A stretch of DNA of 41,257 nt from Bacteroidota bacterium (lineage in GTDB: Bacteria > Bacteroidota > Bacteroidia > NS11-12g > UBA955): contig SXYY01000057.1 of NCBI GenBank assembly GCA_005788145.1, positions 1 through 41,257 on the forward strand, written 5' to 3'. This document shows, piece by piece, positions 948-22,415 of the stretch. Position 1 is the stretch's first letter, and each line of letters opens with the position of its first letter. The translations under genes were made by a program, and so were the position numbers. The notes beneath the pieces are model-generated. The model worked only from the letters and a program-made list of their open reading frames with translations. It had not been told where the DNA came from and did no database searches.

Positions 948-1956
948 GCGTAACTTTGCAGCAAAGTTGGTAAAAATCGGCGACATAGCGTTGGGAGAAT
1001 TTCCGTTGTTATTGGCACCCATGGAAGACGTGAGTGATCCGCCGTTTCGGTATGTGTGCAAGCAACACGGGGCCGACCTTATGTACACTGAATTTATTAG
1101 CAGTGAGGGATTGATTCGCGATGCGGTGAAGAGTCGACAGAAGCTCGATATTTTCGATTACGAACGACCGATAGGCATTCAGATTTTCGGGGGCGATGAA
1201 GAGGCGATGGGATTGGCGGCGAGGATTGTGGATGCCACGCAGCCTGATTTGTTGGACATCAATTTTGGTTGTCCGGTGCAGAAGGTGGTTTGCAAGGGCG
1301 CGGGTGCTGGGGTGTTGAAGGACATTGATTTGATGGTAAGATTGACCTCGGCGGTGGTGAAGGGAACGTCGTTGCCGGTAACGGTGAAAACGCGATTGGG
1401 CTGGGACGATAGTACGAAGAACATCGAGGAGGTGGCCGAGCGATTACAAGACGTTGGGGTGAAGGCGTTAACGATTCATGGCAGAACGCGCGTGCAATTG
1501 TATAAGGGCGAGGCGGACTGGACGTTGATTTCGAAAGTGAAAAACAATCCTCGGATACAGATTCCGATTTTTGGCAATGGCGATATTGACTCGCCGCAGA
1601 AGGCGTTGGAGTATAGAAATCGCTATGGGGTGGATGGCATCATGATTGGACGGGCGAGCATTGGCTATCCTTGGATTTTCAGGGAGGTGAAGCATTTTAT
1701 GGCCACGGGTGAGGTGTTGGATGGGCCTACATTGGCTGAGCGATTGGATGCCTGCAGAACCCATTTTGTGAAGAGTGTGGAGTGGAAAGGTCCGAAGGTT
1801 GGGGTGTTTGAGATGCGCAGGCACTATGCGAATTACTTCAAGGGGTTGCCAAATTTCAAGGACTTCAGGGTGAAGTTGGTGGGTTGCGAGGTTCCGGATG
1901 AGATTTTGGAGACCTTGGATCGCATTTTGGTGGAGTACGAGGGCTTGGTGAATTGA
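946..1956 (+). CDS. dusB: tRNA-dihydrouridine synthase (DusB type)
   Basis: LLLAPMEDVSDPPFR, DINFGCPVQKVVCKGAGAGVL, VTVKTRLGWD, IHGRTR and GNGDI motifs. Start could be ATG 946 or TTG 967. Confidence 0.93.
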   Translation: MRNFAAKLVKIGDIALGEFPLLLAPMEDVSDPPFRYVCKQHGADLMYTEFISSEGLIRDAVKSRQKLDIFDYERPIGIQIFGGDEEAMGLAARIVDATQPDLLDINFGCPVQKVVCKGAGAGVLKDIDLMVRLTSAVVKGTSLPVTVKTRLGWDDSTKNIEEVAERLQDVGVKALTIHGRTRVQLYKGEADWTLISKVKNNPRIQIPIFGNGDIDSPQKALEYRNRYGVDGIMIGRASIGYPWIFREVKHFMATGEVLDGPTLAERLDACRTHFVKSVEWKGPKVGVFEMRRHYANYFKGLPNFKDFRVKLVGCEVPDEILETLDRILVEYEGLVN

Positions 1957-15371: not shown

Positions 15372-15980
15372 ATGCGGGTTTTGTTCATCGATAATTTGGA
15401 CAGTTTTACTTTCAATGTGGTGCATTGTCTGGTGGTTGCCGGTGCGGAGGTTGAGGTGTTGCGCAACGAGGGTGAGGATTGGCTGGAGTTGGCAGAAAAA
15501 ATGGCAGGTTGTGATGCATGGGCGGTCGGCCCGGGACCGGGCCGACCGCAAGACTACCCCCATTTGATGAGGGCTATCACCCAATGGATGGGCAAGAAGC
15601 CACTGCTGGGTATCTGCCTTGGACAACAAGCCATCGCCCAAGCCTGTGGTTGGCAAATTGATCATGCATCCTATCCCATGCACGGGAAACCCTCCGTGAT
15701 TGATCACAACAGTCAAGGACTTTTTGAAGGATTGCCCCAGGCGCTACAAGTGGGTAGGTACCATTCATTGGTTGTGACATCGCCCAGTGATATTAGCCCA
15801 GTGAACATCGCCCTGAACATTGATGCCCGATGCAACCAAGAAATTATGGCGGTAAGCAATCCAGCAATGGGTGTTTGGGCCGTGCAGTTTCACCCTGAGA
15901 GTGTGCTGACACCGGAAGGACAGGCGATGATAAACCGTTGGGTGAAGTTGGCCGATGCGTTTAATCGCAAGAAAGTCTAG
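15372..15980 (+). CDS. pabA/trpG: Anthranilate/aminodeoxychorismate synthase component II (glutamine amidotransferase)
   Basis: FIDNLDSFTFNVV, GPGPGRPQDYP, LLGICLGQQAIA, WAVQFHPESVLTPEG. Confidence 0.93.
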   Translation: MRVLFIDNLDSFTFNVVHCLVVAGAEVEVLRNEGEDWLELAEKMAGCDAWAVGPGPGRPQDYPHLMRAITQWMGKKPLLGICLGQQAIAQACGWQIDHASYPMHGKPSVIDHNSQGLFEGLPQALQVGRYHSLVVTSPSDISPVNIALNIDARCNQEIMAVSNPAMGVWAVQFHPESVLTPEGQAMINRWVKLADAFNRKKV

Positions 15981-17842
15981 GCCTTGTTGTTCAATCGCAG
16001 GGCAGATCGCACCGCATTGGCAATGTTCTCAGGCGCGTAGCCGCACAAAGGATACAAGTCGTTTTCGTTGTTGCCGTGTTCGATGAACTCGTTTGGAATC
16101 CCCAAATGGGCGTGGAATTTCGCAACATGGGCGTGTGCATTGGCTGCTGTTGTTTGTCCCCATCCCCCTTGAATACACCCGTCTTCCACAGTAATGATGT
16201 GACTGTAGGGATCGAGATTGATGCTACCATCGGCTATTTGGGTTGAAGTTTCGCTGAGTTTGGAGCAATGAAGGTGATCAAAAGCGAGATCTTGTAATGA
16301 AATATGGGCTTGTAAACACAAATTGCTCGCATGTCCGGTGCTGAGAAGAAGTACTTTGGCACTGGGCGATTGCATTAGCCACTGTGGTCGCAGCGCCTCG
16401 ATGGCTTTTTCTGTTGAATCAATCGTCCATTGGGTTTCTGTGATGTTTCCTTTGGGGTATCGAATGGCGATGGGTTTGTTGGCGGCGATGCCAAATTGCA
16501 TGGCTGCGGCGAGTTCGGCAGCGTTGCGCGGCGCAAAGAGGGTGGTATTGGGTACGCAAAGCAAAAAGGCGATGTCGAACGCACCGTGGTGGGTAGGTCC
16601 GTCTTCACCCACCAATCCTGCGCGGTCAATGCACAAAATTACGGGTAGGTTTTGTAGGGCGATGTCGTGAATGTATTGGTCGTAGCCGCGTTGCAGAAAC
16701 GAGGAGTAAATATTGACGATGGGAATGAGTCCTTGGGTGGACATACCAGCTGCGAAGGTGAGGGCGTGTTGTTCAGCGATGCCTACATCAAAGAATCGAT
16801 CTGGAAATTGATTCATGGCGTGAATCATCCCGCACGATGATGGCATTGCGGGTGTAATACCCGATAGGTTAGGGTATTTTTTTGCAAGTGCGACCAACAC
16901 ATCTCCAAACACATCTTGCCATTTTTTGGCGGGTTTTGAAGGCGTTTCAATTTTTACATATTTGGCTGCGCTATGCCATTTGGTTTGCTCCTGCTCGGCG
17001 GGAAGGTAGCCTTTGCCTTTGATGGTTTTGATATGCAACAGGCGAGGACCTTCTATGCTGTAACTTTTTGCCAGTGCGGGCATTAACTCACTGAGGTTGT
17101 TGCCGTCTACCGGACCTTGGTAAGCCAATCCAAACCACTCAAACCACGCTTTTATATCGGCGGGTTTGGCGCGCAGTTGTGTATTCAATGCCCCAGTATT
17201 GGGGTCGATGCCCATTTGGTTGTCGTTGAGGATAACCAAGACATTCAGGTTTGATTCAAACAAGTTATTTAAGGCTTCATAGGACAAGCCAGCGGTAAGT
17301 GCGCCATCACCTACAACAGCCACAAAGGTGGGTTTGTGGCTGTTGGCTGTGGGTTGAGTTTTTGTGAGGATGTTGTGTGCGGCGGCCATGCCCATGGCCG
17401 CCGAAATGGCCGTGCTTGAATGGCCCGTGCCAAATGCATCATAGCTGCTTTCGGTGATTTTGGGAAAGCCCGATATCCCCTTGAACGTTCGTATGCCACT
17501 GAGTTGATCTTTTCTGCCTGTCAATACCTTGTGGGGGTAGGCTTGATGACCTACATCCCAAACGATGGCATCTTCTGGAAAATTGATTGTGTGGTGGAGC
17601 GCAACGGTCAATTCTATGACGCCGAGGTTTGATGAAAAATGTCCGCCCGACTGAAGTACCGAATCTGAAACAAAGGCCCTTAATTCCTCACACAATTTTT
17701 CTAATGCTGAGAATGAGAAGTTTTTGATTTCGTTCGGTGAGGATATTTTTTGAAGTAGGTTCAAAGTTTTTTCGGGTGTGTATGCACAAAAATAGGGTGA
17801 TTTGTTGAGTGAATGTTCATGTGAATTTGTGGATGAAAGCAT
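15977..17842 (-). CDS. dxs: 1-deoxy-D-xylulose-5-phosphate synthase
   Basis: QSGGHFSSNLGVIELTVALHH, GDGALTAGLSYEALNN, LNDNQMGI, DVGIAEQHALTFAAGM, GPTHHGAFDIAFL; the N-terminal ~30 aa may be overextended. Confidence 0.96.
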   Translation of the reverse strand: MLSSTNSHEHSLNKSPYFCAYTPEKTLNLLQKISSPNEIKNFSFSALEKLCEELRAFVSDSVLQSGGHFSSNLGVIELTVALHHTINFPEDAIVWDVGHQAYPHKVLTGRKDQLSGIRTFKGISGFPKITESSYDAFGTGHSSTAISAAMGMAAAHNILTKTQPTANSHKPTFVAVVGDGALTAGLSYEALNNLFESNLNVLVILNDNQMGIDPNTGALNTQLRAKPADIKAWFEWFGLAYQGPVDGNNLSELMPALAKSYSIEGPRLLHIKTIKGKGYLPAEQEQTKWHSAAKYVKIETPSKPAKKWQDVFGDVLVALAKKYPNLSGITPAMPSSCGMIHAMNQFPDRFFDVGIAEQHALTFAAGMSTQGLIPIVNIYSSFLQRGYDQYIHDIALQNLPVILCIDRAGLVGEDGPTHHGAFDIAFLLCVPNTTLFAPRNAAELAAAMQFGIAANKPIAIRYPKGNITETQWTIDSTEKAIEALRPQWLMQSPSAKVLLLSTGHASNLCLQAHISLQDLAFDHLHCSKLSETSTQIADGSINLDPYSHIITVEDGCIQGGWGQTTAANAHAHVAKFHAHLGIPNEFIEHGNNENDLYPLCGYAPENIANAVRSALRLNNKA

Positions 17843-17884: not shown

Positions 17885-17944
17885 AATAATTTTTTATTTA
17901 ATTGATAAAATCAATAAAAAACAGACAGAAAAATTGCATTTTAA

Positions 17945-17977
17945 TTTGGAAGTAAATTAGTGTATTTTGTAGTTTTG
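17945..17977 (+). promoter_or_regulatory. Promoter of the AT-hook gene: TTTG - 21 nt - TAGTTTTG
   Basis: TTTG 17945-17948; TAGTTTTG 17970-17977; fits the Bacteroidota -33/-7 spacing. Confidence 0.6.
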
Positions 17978-18031: not shown

Positions 18032-18658
18032 ATGGAAAATATAGATAATTCTGTCGCGTCATTACCTAAAAAAAGGGGTAGAAAACCGGGTTCTAAGAAC
18101 AAGGTATCTTCAAAAAGAACATCAAAAAAAGTATCTTATTTGAGTGCGTTTTCAATTCTAGAACAGGAAATTCAGTCGCTTTCAAATGCTTTGAAAAAAG
18201 CCACCTTGAAGGCCGAAAAAGAAATTGAAAAATTAGAAAGGAAACAATCTCGTGAGGTAGAGAAAGTAAAAGCCAAGGCAGCAAAGTCATTGTCGTTGTG
18301 GAAAGCCCGAGCCAAAGCCAACTTGAAAAAAGGCAAAGTGAGCACCGGTCGCATTGGCCGTCCTGCCAAACCAAAAGCAGAAAAAGAAGCTAGGCGTAAA
18401 GGTAGACCACCCAAAACTGGCTACCGCAAAGGTGGCGGACGCAGAAAGGCGGGCGAACTAACCAAACGCGATATTATTTTGAATTATGTGAAAGAATTGA
18501 ACCAGCCCATCGCTTCGGGTGCCTTGATTTTGGCATTGTACGAGCGCAGCGGTGAGCGCGACAAAAAGCGTTTTTCACAAGGAATGTACACAACCCTGAC
18601 CCAAATGTATAAGGCAGGTTTGTTGAAGAAGGACGACGGTATCGTGTCCTTGCCATAA
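18032..18658 (+). CDS. AT-hook/histone-H1-like DNA-binding protein with coiled coil and probable winged-helix C-terminus
   Basis: KKRGRKPGSKNK, GRIGRPAKPK and RRKGRPPKTG motifs; Lys/Glu/Ala heptad-like middle; C-terminal LTKRDIILNYVKELNQPIASGALILALYERSGERDKKRFSQGMYTTLTQMYKAGLLKKDDGIVSLP. Confidence 0.75.
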   Translation: MENIDNSVASLPKKRGRKPGSKNKVSSKRTSKKVSYLSAFSILEQEIQSLSNALKKATLKAEKEIEKLERKQSREVEKVKAKAAKSLSLWKARAKANLKKGKVSTGRIGRPAKPKAEKEARRKGRPPKTGYRKGGGRRKAGELTKRDIILNYVKELNQPIASGALILALYERSGERDKKRFSQGMYTTLTQMYKAGLLKKDDGIVSLP

Positions 18659-18665
18659 TTTTTGG

Positions 18666-19511
18666 TTATCCATTGGGTAGCACAATCGCTTGAATAAAGC
18701 GGGGGTTATCAGACATGTCTCGAATAACCTCCGCTTCAGCGAAAGAGGCAAACAAATTTTTGGTTTCCTCAGCAAGGTATTGGTTGATTTCCAGCCAAAT
18801 GTGTAGGGGTTTGGTGCGTTGGGCCATCGCGGTTTCTGCGAGTAGTGCCATTTTTCGATAAAAAATCAACGGGTCGTTTTTCGGGGTGAACAAAGCGAGG
18901 TGCGGTTCGTGTTTGAGCACGTTGTCTGCCATGTCCTTGGCTTCTTTCAATTCTATGTAGGGTGGGTTCGACACCAATAAATCAATTTGGGGGGGTAAAC
19001 TATCCCAGTTTAAGAAATTGGACTGTTCGAGTTGCAATCGATCTTGAATTCCAACGTGGAATGCATTTTCAGCGGCCACATCCAGAGCGTCTTCACTCAC
19101 ATCCACCCCGGTGAATTTCCACAGGGGATTTTGGTGTAACAAATACATGGGAATACAACCACTGCCCGTCCCAATATCGAGTCCTTCAATGTTGGAGCCA
19201 TTGCTTGATTCCAAGGTTTGCTTTCTCTCGCAGATGAGGTGACAGAGTTCCTCTGTTTCAGGTCTGGGAATGAGGGTGGCGGGTGTAACTTTCAGTGTAA
19301 GCGGACCGAAGAAAGCTGCTTCAAAAATGTATTGAATTGGGATCTGCTGCTTGAGTTGTTCGCAAATCAGTTTCAAGGCCTGCAATCGATCAATTTCCGG
19401 CAAAGATTCACAATGTGGCAAAATCCAAAATTCAAAGGCCTTGATTTCATCCGCTGAAAACTGTGGCTGAAGGTTTTGATGGATGTGGGCTTGGATCAAC
19501 TGTCGGGTCAT
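18666..19511 (-). CDS. prmC: Peptide chain release factor N5-glutamine methyltransferase
   Basis: IPRPETEELCHLI, GLDIGTGSGCIPMYLL, DLLVSNPPYIELKE. Confidence 0.94.
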   Translation of the reverse strand: MTRQLIQAHIHQNLQPQFSADEIKAFEFWILPHCESLPEIDRLQALKLICEQLKQQIPIQYIFEAAFFGPLTLKVTPATLIPRPETEELCHLICERKQTLESSNGSNIEGLDIGTGSGCIPMYLLHQNPLWKFTGVDVSEDALDVAAENAFHVGIQDRLQLEQSNFLNWDSLPPQIDLLVSNPPYIELKEAKDMADNVLKHEPHLALFTPKNDPLIFYRKMALLAETAMAQRTKPLHIWLEINQYLAEETKNLFASFAEAEVIRDMSDNPRFIQAIVLPNG

Positions 19512-19526
19512 GGGAACATTGATTGT

Positions 19527-22130
19527 CTATGGTTGATGGATGAGTACCAACCGCAAATTTTGACTGCAAATGTCTGCATCTGGGTGGAAAGCGTCTACAT
19601 GAAGTATATAATTTCCGCTGGGGAGCTGATTTTTCAATTGGTGGATGGGCACGAGGATGCTGCCTTGGTCAGATACCTGTAGCTTGGGGAAGTTAAGGGG
19701 TATGTTGCTGCCCATCATGGAATAGAGCGATAGCCGAACAACATAACCCGGCTTCTCCAGTGTGTGGCGAAGGGTAATATACTCGTCGTTTTGCACCAAG
19801 TAAACCATTTTCTCAAGGAAGAAAGGTTTTCTTCGTGGGTTGGTGCGGGCAGTGGCTGTTTGACTATTCGGTGCACCGGGCGTAGCATAGCCTGCTGTGA
19901 AGGTCGCACTGACCCAATGGTTGGTCTGATGCGATGGTGCATTGGGATGGGTTTTTTCCAAACTCACCCCTTTGTTGCTTGAAAGAATGGGTGTATGCAT
20001 GTTTTCGTTGTATTGCATTTCATCGAGGATATGGGTGGGATGGATCAATTGTAAAGTGGCTTCGTTGGCGGGCAAATTGGGAAAGTCATCGACTTTTTGG
20101 TGATGAAAAAAGTGAGAGGGACTGTTTGCCAATGCCAAGCGGTAGGGGTTGTTGCTGTAACAACGAATTTGTTGAGGATACAAAACGAAGGGTTGGCTTT
20201 GCAACATGGTGAGTGAAGCGACTTGTTGATCTTCGATGACCTTGAGTTGAAGTCCTTGTAGTTGAAGGGCTTTGTTGGATGTATTCACAACCTCAACATA
20301 ATCGGAAAGATGGTCAAAGGCATTGAACATGACTTCATTGAATTGGATGTCGCCCGGAAGGGACTGCGTTTCTGTGAAAGCCAATTTTTGCAGGGTATCC
20401 CTTAAGGGTTGTGCGTTGCAACTCGTGGCGTTTTTGATGACGATATTGACCCATTCACCGGAACTGAGGGGTGGCTGAATATGGTACTGATGGACTTTGT
20501 TTTGAATAGGTATGAAGGTGTGCGTTGTTGCGTCGCCGGTAGGATAGACATATGGCGTGGTCTGTGATGTGGGTTGCGTGAATTGAAGCCGGAGGGTGTC
20601 GTTGTGGGTGGCTGCGATGTAAGCCACTTGGAAGGGTATTTGGGTATTTGGTTCAGGCGATTTTACGCTAGGAAACGGCTTGGGCGGGTAATTCGGTAAG
20701 GAAGGGGTACCGCCTTCATGCGAATTGGAATACCATTGAAATAGGTCTAGGCAAGGGGCGGCGGTATCGGAGTGTTCCAGGCTATATCCGCCATTTTCAT
20801 AAGTTGGGTGATGCATCCACTGCTGGTACTGCAGTTGATGGACGATTTGCTGTTGGACATTGGTGAGGGTGAGGGTCTCCGATTCGATGTTGATGTAAGG
20901 CAGTTTACAGGGCAGGACGTTTGGAGTGGTCTGCATGAGGGCTGTATCACTCACATCGCACAGGGTAATTCGCTGATGGGGTTGCAAAAGGTATTTTGGT
21001 AGTTGAATGCTTGTTTGGGCATCGGATAGGGTTAGTTCGTTGAGCCAAAGTAGTTCATTGCTATTGTTTTTTAGTTCGATGTATTGCACCGGCGGGAGAT
21101 ATCCCAGGGTTGGGTTGGGGTCTGCCATGATTTCTGTAAACGTGATTTGGTATGGGGCCACGGGTGTGGCACATACTATAAAGGCTTTGCCTTGCTGCAG
21201 TGGTTGGATGTTTTTTGCACTGTCTTGGGCATTTTGTACATGAACAATATGTTCTCGGTTACAGGACTGTGGGGGGAATTTGACCCTAAGGATATTGGAG
21301 TTTGTATGATAGAAAGTGTCGGCTTGCTGAAAATTGCAAATGAGTTGATTTTTGTTTTCCAGGGCGATGGGTTCAGAGAAACCAAGTTGGGCCCACTCAG
21401 GTGATGTCCATTGGACGGATTTTAATGTGGGTGGGGTTTTGTCGGGGCGCGGCGGGGTTACGGAGTAGGTTGTGATTCTGTGTTTTTCCGCCGCGCCGCT
21501 ACCCGTTTGTGTTATGGAGAGCCCCACGTAGTTTCGGTTTATTTGTAGGGTGTCTATGGCCGCACAAAGGGTTCGATATTGCTCCCAACTGCTGTCTTTG
21601 TATAGGATGAGCATGAGGTTGTTTTGTTTCACCCAGCGCAGTGTGATGTTCGATTTTGGTTTGTTGAAATAGCCCGATTCACCTGTGCATTCCAGTCGGT
21701 CTTTGCCTGCTTTTCGTTCAATGAGTTTGAGTCCGTCCTCCACATCGCCCAGTCGCAGTATCCAACCATTTTGAAGGGCACTATCAAATCGGAACAATAC
21801 TTCCAAGAAATTGGCACTGCTGGGGTTGAAATCGAGGTATAGGTTGGTTTCCAACCATTGCAATGTGTCGGTACTGCACTGCAAGAACAAGTTGACGGTT
21901 TGTTTTGTGGAACTTGCGGGAATTTGACTTTGTATGCCGCTCGCGGTCCATTGAAATTGATTGGGATGTCCGAGTGCGCCCCCAGCAGCCAGGGTTAAAT
22001 CGCACTGTGCCCAAAGGCCATCGTTGGCCAATAGCAGCAGTGGTGCAAGCAATTGTAGGAGATTTTTAGGCGCGGTAAGGGCGGGCTTTTCAGCGACAAG
22101 GAATGGTTGCAGCCGCGAGGGCGAGGATTG
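19527..22130 (-). CDS. Large lamin-tail-domain (LTD) containing exported protein; 5' end uncertain
   Basis: Repeated LTD-like segments (ITFTEIMADPNPTLGYLPPVQYIELKNNSNELLWLNELTLSD; IQFNEVMFNAFDHLSDYVEVVNTSNKALQLQGLQL). The 911-aa ORF runs to 22262, but its first ~50 aa overlap the GT2-like frame. Confidence 0.7.
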   Translation of the reverse strand, partial: QSSPSRLQPFLVAEKPALTAPKNLLQLLAPLLLLANDGLWAQCDLTLAAGGALGHPNQFQWTASGIQSQIPASSTKQTVNLFLQCSTDTLQWLETNLYLDFNPSSANFLEVLFRFDSALQNGWILRLGDVEDGLKLIERKAGKDRLECTGESGYFNKPKSNITLRWVKQNNLMLILYKDSSWEQYRTLCAAIDTLQINRNYVGLSITQTGSGAAEKHRITTYSVTPPRPDKTPPTLKSVQWTSPEWAQLGFSEPIALENKNQLICNFQQADTFYHTNSNILRVKFPPQSCNREHIVHVQNAQDSAKNIQPLQQGKAFIVCATPVAPYQITFTEIMADPNPTLGYLPPVQYIELKNNSNELLWLNELTLSDAQTSIQLPKYLLQPHQRITLCDVSDTALMQTTPNVLPCKLPYINIESETLTLTNVQQQIVHQLQYQQWMHHPTYENGGYSLEHSDTAAPCLDLFQWYSNSHEGGTPSLPNYPPKPFPSVKSPEPNTQIPFQVAYIAATHNDTLRLQFTQPTSQTTPYVYPTGDATTHTFIPIQNKVHQYHIQPPLSSGEWVNIVIKNATSCNAQPLRDTLQKLAFTETQSLPGDIQFNEVMFNAFDHLSDYVEVVNTSNKALQLQGLQLKVIEDQQVASLTMLQSQPFVLYPQQIRCYSNNPYRLALANSPSHFFHHQKVDDFPNLPANEATLQLIHPTHILDEMQYNENMHTPILSSNKGVSLEKTHPNAPSHQTNHWVSATFTAGYATPGAPNSQTATARTNPRRKPFFLEKMVYLVQNDEYITLRHTLEKPGYVVRLSLYSMMGSNIPLNFPKLQVSDQGSILVPIHQLKNQLPSGNYILHVDAFHPDADICSQNLRLVLIHQP

Positions 22131-22415
22131 GTAACCAAAGTACTTTGCGTGCCGAAACCAGCACAACGATAAACGGGTTGGGATGTTCTTTTTTACAAAG
22201 AATGTGTACACCGGCTGAATCCACGAGCAGTTTCCCCAGCCAAACAAAGGCCAATGTTTCATATGTGCCCCTATACACAGAGATTCCGGTTATCACCCAA
22301 AGCGAAATCATGAACAACCCCACCAAAGTCTGTTTTAACGCTGTTTTTTGTGTTTTTTACAAAAATGTTTTCGTCATCCAGCGCATCCGCTGATTGAAAA
22401 ACGACCGAAATTCGA
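22090..22415 (-). pseudogene. Remnant of the C-terminal part of a GT2 glycosyltransferase
   Basis: One minus-strand frame reads ..IEFRSFFNQRMRWMTKTFL*KTQKTALKQTLVGLFMISLWVITGISVYRGTYETLAFVWLGKLLVDSAGVHILCKK...: Q-x-x-RW motif, in-frame TAA (22357-22359), then a hydrophobic GT2-like tail. Confidence 0.5.

Follow-up and report, generated by a model that had tools for sequence, protein, structure and literature searches.

An AT-hook, coiled-coil and winged-helix protein from one Bacteroidota family: a candidate nucleoid architectural protein with an interchangeable C-terminus

The Bacillus protein Rok (Rok/sRok, PF23159, WH_Rok) combines an oligomerising N-terminus with a basic tail and a winged helix that both contact the minor groove, and shows that a bacterial xenogeneic silencer can be built from a coil, a basic tail and a winged helix (PMC6212790, PMC6936261). 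In CarD, known from Myxococcus, AT-hooked HMGA-like and Lys/Ala/Pro-rich H1-like C-termini alternate between species, the H1-type tail being found in Anaeromyxobacter (PMC9304148). AlgP joins a helical N-domain to KPAA repeats, binds DNA and spaces polyphosphate granules (PMC9239181). Extended AT-hooks prefer RNA, and basic disordered segments and hooks can bind both RNA and DNA (PMC4822317). The literature searched yielded no description of an AT-hook architectural protein from Bacteroidota. Here we describe a gene whose product contains AT-hooks, a probable coiled coil and a predicted winged helix, and whose orthologues carry other C-termini in the same chromosomal slot.

The gene lies in a window of 41,257 nucleotides, the whole stretch of DNA analysed, from a Bacteroidota bacterium (contig SXYY01000057.1). 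The open reading frame at 18032-18658 (forward strand) was confirmed as real and encodes a small, highly basic protein of 208 residues (P0001; pI 10.5, net charge +34); the start at 18032 is supported, since similarity to relatives begins at that Met. Comparison with the closest relatives gives a dN/dS of 0.05-0.07 for the whole gene, falling to 0.03-0.05 in the coil and C-terminal domain (coil 0.03-0.04), indicative of strong purifying selection. The gene is present in a single copy in its own genome (1.85 Mb, 82% complete). The same genome contains two HU/IHF-type genes (G000:C145:56-316 and G000:C25:1593-1850), so P0001 is an additional, not the sole, candidate nucleoid protein.

The neighbourhood is conserved across genera, and consists of two housekeeping genes that have no obvious pathway in common with the P0001 gene: the divergent dxs on the left (15977-17842, reverse strand; Pfam DXP_synthase_N) and a convergent prmC/hemK-type methyltransferase gene on the right (18666-19511, reverse strand; Pfam MTS). 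A gene for a lamin-tail-domain protein and then a cytidylyltransferase-like gene follow prmC, an order common to several genera. The lamin-tail-domain protein (19527-22262, reverse strand; 911 aa) is fast-evolving, with about 25% identity between genera, and its position beside prmC is fixed despite this. The intergenic region upstream of the P0001 gene is 78% AT and contains a Bacteroidota-type promoter (17945-17977, forward strand) composed of TTTG (17945-17948), a 21-base spacer and TAGTTTTG (17970-17977), matching the TTTG / TAnnTTTG consensus of Bacteroidota sigma factors (PMC7366714). Motif and spacer are conserved in the genus (8 of the 10 members scanned, the window copy counted), and in more distant genera no exact TTTG-N21-TAnnTTTG was found at the corresponding position. 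Because it stands alone in its slot with its own promoter, the P0001 gene is probably transcribed alone. An AT-rich element upstream of the promoter (17930-17949) reads AAAAATTGCAATT... in relatives and has diverged in the window; the AAAAATTGCAATT of close relatives contains the palindrome AATTGCAATT, a possible operator for the P0001 gene or dxs.

The first-pass annotation of this DNA had proposed three AT-hook-like motifs, and their positions are exact. Hook 1 (KKRGRKPGSKNK, residues 13-24, 18068-18103) has a non-canonical GRK core; among 28 aligned homologues from five genera, used to score hook conservation throughout, R15-G16-R17-K18 and G20-S21-K22-N23-K24 (RGRK.GSKNK, including the SKNK) are invariant. 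In hook 2 (GRIGRPAKPK, residues 106-115, 18347-18376), G109 and R110 are invariant and P111 is present in 26 of 28; P0001 itself carries Ile at a position that is Arg or Lys in most relatives (R/K-G-R-P). Hook 3 (RRKGRPPKTG, residues 121-130, 18392-18421) is canonical, with G124-R125-P126 in all 28. A further conserved basic element that the annotation had missed (RKGGGRRKAGE, residues 132-142, 18425-18457; G136, R137 and G141 invariant) directly precedes the winged helix, and both its GR..AG pattern and the QG.YTTLT..Y..G.L pattern of the C-terminal domain vary little or not at all in the 28 sequences; all four elements lie on the forward strand. Three [RKI]GR[PK] cores arose in 1 of 10,000 whole-protein shuffles, and in 4 of 10,000 when shuffling was confined to the two basic segments. 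AT-hooks are recognised by several G-R-P cores with basic flanks, and P0001 has two such GRP cores and one GRK core, all conserved. The Pfam AT_hook model (PF02178) left P0001 unmatched even at E 10, and exceeded its gathering cut-off in one of 69 family genomes (G005). Conservation in the alignment together with low dN/dS argues that the hook motifs are under selection, and loss of the motifs in orthologues, which the annotation had named as grounds for rejecting its interpretation, was not observed. P0001 very probably bridges or coats AT-rich DNA, and hook 1 could bind RNA as well.

The Lys/Glu/Ala stretch between hooks 1 and 2, described earlier as heptad-like, is predicted by AlphaFold2 as one amphipathic helix of 67 residues (36-102, 18137-18337, forward strand; pLDDT mostly 77-93). 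Along it, hydrophobic residues at 3-4 spacing form a conserved stripe (F40, L43, I47, L50, L54, A57, A61, I65, L68, V76, V79, A83, L87, W90, A94), and the hydrophobic periodicity of 99-100 degrees is equalled in strength by none of 2000 shuffles. The reading of this K/E stretch as a single alpha-helix was set aside given the conserved stripe, which makes a coiled coil likelier than a single charged helix. Thus, the helix probably forms a coiled coil, through which the protein would dimerise.

The full-length AlphaFold2 model, built with six sequences, has disorder around the hooks, the helix at 36-102 and a folded domain at 145-206. Folded alone, the C-terminal domain (residues 144-208, 18461-18655, forward strand) reaches pLDDT 92.2 and pTM 0.78 with the order H-(E)-H-H-E-E, and the H1-S1-H2-H3-S2-S3 arrangement of the winged-helix superfamily is present in the predicted model; the earlier proposal of a winged-helix tail therefore holds in prediction, and a C-terminus that does not fold in this way, the annotation's second ground for rejection, is not what the model shows. 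Foldseek gave a probability of 1.00 to several solved winged helices, the structural neighbours being winged helices of which many bind DNA: Hop2 (TM 0.75, the best E-value), the Hho1 linker-histone chimera 1yqa (0.80), Hho1 GII (0.77), Zur/Fur (0.66-0.74), Rok (0.55) and RosR. Because none of these matches falls below E 1e-3, the fold is generic, and the model supports a winged helix but no particular family.

P0001 resembles Rok in its N-terminal predicted coil, in the basic tail adjoining a C-terminal winged helix, in being a single gene absent from some species and in its proposed AT-rich DNA target. Rok differs in its neutral Q linker and in lacking AT-hooks (PMC6936261, PMC6212790), and membership of its family was rejected: PF23159 finds sRok at 4e-22 but no member of the P0001 family, with an hhalign probability of 0.3%, and no reliable alignment with Rok was reached at the level of residues such as its N-T-R minor-groove triad. 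The comparison with CarD drawn in the first-pass annotation stands as a parallel, RGRP hooks being shared and H1-like tails recurring, and does not extend to kinship. The N-terminal domain of CarD binds RNA polymerase, and CarD lacks a winged helix, whereas the N-terminus of P0001 is a hook and coil, and CarD_CdnL had no Pfam or NCBIfam match in P0001. The annotation had also called the protein H1-like. Here the structural resemblance of the winged-helix model to the globular domain of yeast Hho1 (TM 0.80, 1yqa) is retained, but no sequence link accompanies it and other winged helices are about equally close: Linker_histone (PF00538) matched neither P0001 nor 20 winged-helix members at E 10. 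Linker histones place a Lys/Ala/Pro-rich tail after the globular winged helix, whereas P0001 ends at its winged helix and its orthologues have such a tail instead of, not after, the domain, no family member being seen with both; the setting differs too, since no nucleosomes are expected in the host. The stronger H1 parallel is these orthologues, in which a tail resembling the H1 C-terminal domain replaces the winged helix. HMGA proteins likewise carry several AT-hooks on a basic, disordered chain, and one protein from the P0001 slot (genome G016) is barely more than a helix and six hooks, whereas hook 1 of P0001 has a GRK core. HMGA is not known to contain a coiled coil or a winged helix. AlgP, PhaF and Hc1 share with some orthologues (G004, G005 and G036) a helical N-terminal part and a repeat-rich Lys/Ala/Pro tail, but the P0001 family has AT-hooks, and in P0001 itself a folded domain stands where the tail would be.

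On the tests made, P0001 falls outside the Rok, H1 and CarD families. Pfam, NCBIfam and PHROGs contained no curated family for it beyond coil or composition matches, and CCDC90-like and ATP-synt_B matches were rejected as below cut-off and covering the helix only. A sequence search of the PDB gave nothing convincing. A phage or plasmid origin was set aside after no match was obtained in phage records, plasmid records or IMG/VR. P0001 represents a new family, with known kinds of parts in a new combination.

One named relative, a protein of Bacteroidetes bacterium UBA955, is 95% identical, and the named relatives are Bacteroidota MAGs, which bears out the earlier supposition of a Bacteroidota host; the architecture itself is confined to one family of the phylum and sparse remote relatives. 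Within the genus, 14 of 15 genomes have a homologue, the exception (G012) having a contig break beside prmC, and across the family homologues are present in 41 of 70 genomes and 7 of 14 genera. The gene was not found in the other 29 of the 70, including 15 of the 42 good ones, so P0001 is not an indispensable chromosome organiser. Wide conservation in Bacteroidota was rejected: a winged-helix profile searched against 395 genomes of the class recovered family members and one remote relative, and against 346 genomes of the phylum it gave, besides its own genome, one weak match inside a long reading frame. Another search yielded a second remote pair. The remote relatives, from other Bacteroidota families (G413, G129 and G207; loci L065 1276-1689, L067 1174-1722 and L068 about 1252-1773, forward strand), are shorter coil-hook-winged-helix proteins and are scarce (3 of 42 genomes of that order); in G129 and G207 the flanking genes appear, by eye, to encode a MoxR-type ATPase and a RecQ-type helicase. 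A 388-residue protein of the sister family (G107; L123 2110-3276, reverse strand) combines a helix with a segment resembling a winged helix, five KKRGRKPGSKN hooks in tandem and a KA-rich tail; with an hhalign probability of 7% against the P0001 family, it is at most a possible relative.

Some orthologues in the dxs-prmC slot (L081 3555-4322, L082 and L083 6198-6881, reverse strand) retain hook 1, the coil and a later hook, and have the winged helix replaced by an H1-like tail rich in Lys, Ala, Pro and Val (33-38% Lys; G004, G005 and G036). G004 and G005 belong to the window's own genus and are 38-39% identical to P0001 across residues 2-117 (E about 1e-22); they keep hook 1, the coil and the GRPAK hook and end in KPKAVKA / KPKAAKVA repeats, the G005 reading frame extending to the contig end. 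G036, from another genus, is 55% identical over about 100 residues (hook 1 and coil) to a winged-helix member (G054), and its 91-residue tail is 33% Lys, 36% Ala and 10% Pro. An assembly artefact or a displaced winged helix was ruled out, because the tail is present in two separate genomes and this winged helix was found neither downstream of the tail variants nor elsewhere in the G004, G005 and G036 genomes. A third kind of C-terminus occurs in genus g2 (G016 and G015; L091 5174-5596 and L098 2172-2516, reverse strand), where the neighbour of prmC codes for a short helix and tandem GPKRPVGRPRIHP AT-hooks, without a winged helix; the single weak winged-helix hit in G015 is a stop-interrupted fragment. 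The G016 and G015 genes are grouped with the others on position alone, because no sequence similarity was found between the G016 protein and the window protein.

A PrmC tree, which as a single-gene tree is a weak guide to deep order, splits the two tail lineages by well-supported branches, so that the tail label has to change on two occasions; the winged helix has apparently been replaced by an H1-type tail twice independently. Because G004 falls within the winged-helix members (97/87), loss of the domain explains its tail more simply; for G036, the tail may have changed in either direction. Since relatives at the same site have swapped one module for another, the replaceable C-termini suggest that the winged helix, the H1 tail and the AT-hooks do the same job.

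From the computed architecture, conservation, predicted fold, syntenic slot and tail replacement, we infer a lineage-specific nucleoid architectural protein, dimerised by its coil, with hooks on the AT-rich minor groove and an interchangeable C-terminal DNA contact, a reading to which we give a probability of about 0.7. The amphipathic helix would pair two (or more) chains, the hooks would grip the AT-rich minor groove and the winged helix would supply a second DNA contact. One dimer could then hold two DNA stretches together or stiffen one, and the resulting bridging or filament formation would silence or organise AT-rich regions. The C-terminal module in this mechanism may be a winged helix, a K/A/P/V-rich H1-like tail or tandem AT-hooks. 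All variants have one or more hooks and a helix in common, and the distal module, which we take to contact DNA, varies; this fits an architectural protein held by its coil. The interpretation of the first-pass annotation is partly supported overall: the domain order it described holds and is conserved, and DNA binding and an architectural role keep the conditional standing given them here.

The main rival, which we consider unlikely, is that P0001 binds mainly RNA, or RNA and DNA alike, hook 1 and its basic flank forming an extended AT-hook that prefers structured RNA, with rRNA, mRNA or an RNA-tethered nucleoid as proposed targets. The GRK core of hook 1 and its basic flank are in keeping with this, as are matches to the PF17208 'RNA binding Region', over cut-off for the five tandem hooks of G107 (E 2.8e-9) and weak for G036 (E 0.0029), but PF17208 here picks up low-complexity basic sequence, both hook 2 and hook 3 have the canonical GRP and the winged helix and H1-like tails suggest DNA; the prmC and dxs neighbours are uninformative. 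A slightly smaller chance attaches to a sequence-specific transcription factor or Hop2-like recombination/repair accessory that acts at few sites, the winged helix reading them and the hooks clamping. The Hop2 winged helix has the best Foldseek E-value, weak Pfam TBPIP/Hop2 matches occur in 3 of 20 members (best E 0.0053) and a promoter in a 78% AT region would suit autoregulation. Nevertheless, orthologues lose the winged helix and retain hooks and coil, which makes a specific reader dispensable; there is no ligand domain, and the winged helix is about equally close to many unrelated ones. The K-P-K-A-V repeats of the G004 and G005 tails, which resemble AlgP, would fit an organiser of storage granules or another non-genomic polyanion, as AlgP is with polyphosphate, with DNA as the tether. 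We regard this as very improbable, since the window protein has a folded winged helix and no such tail, and the AT-hooks in all members suggest duplex DNA.

Returning to the nucleoid architectural protein, a bolder form of that reading can be offered tentatively, in which a single slot holds an AT-hook and coiled-coil DNA-bridging core that is completed by a winged helix resembling that of linker histones, a Lys/Ala tail of H1 type or tandem hooks as in HMGA. If true, the eukaryotic H1 and HMGA modules would be functionally equivalent in a bacterium, and evolution would have swapped them repeatedly in orthologous genes. The slot amounts to a natural domain-swap experiment, in which orthologous genes in the same place end in a winged helix, in a tail of H1 type or, as judged from position, in tandem hooks. 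Whether a winged helix, an H1 tail and AT-hooks are interchangeable for holding DNA, a question raised earlier about CarD and about how linker histones arose, thereby becomes directly testable.
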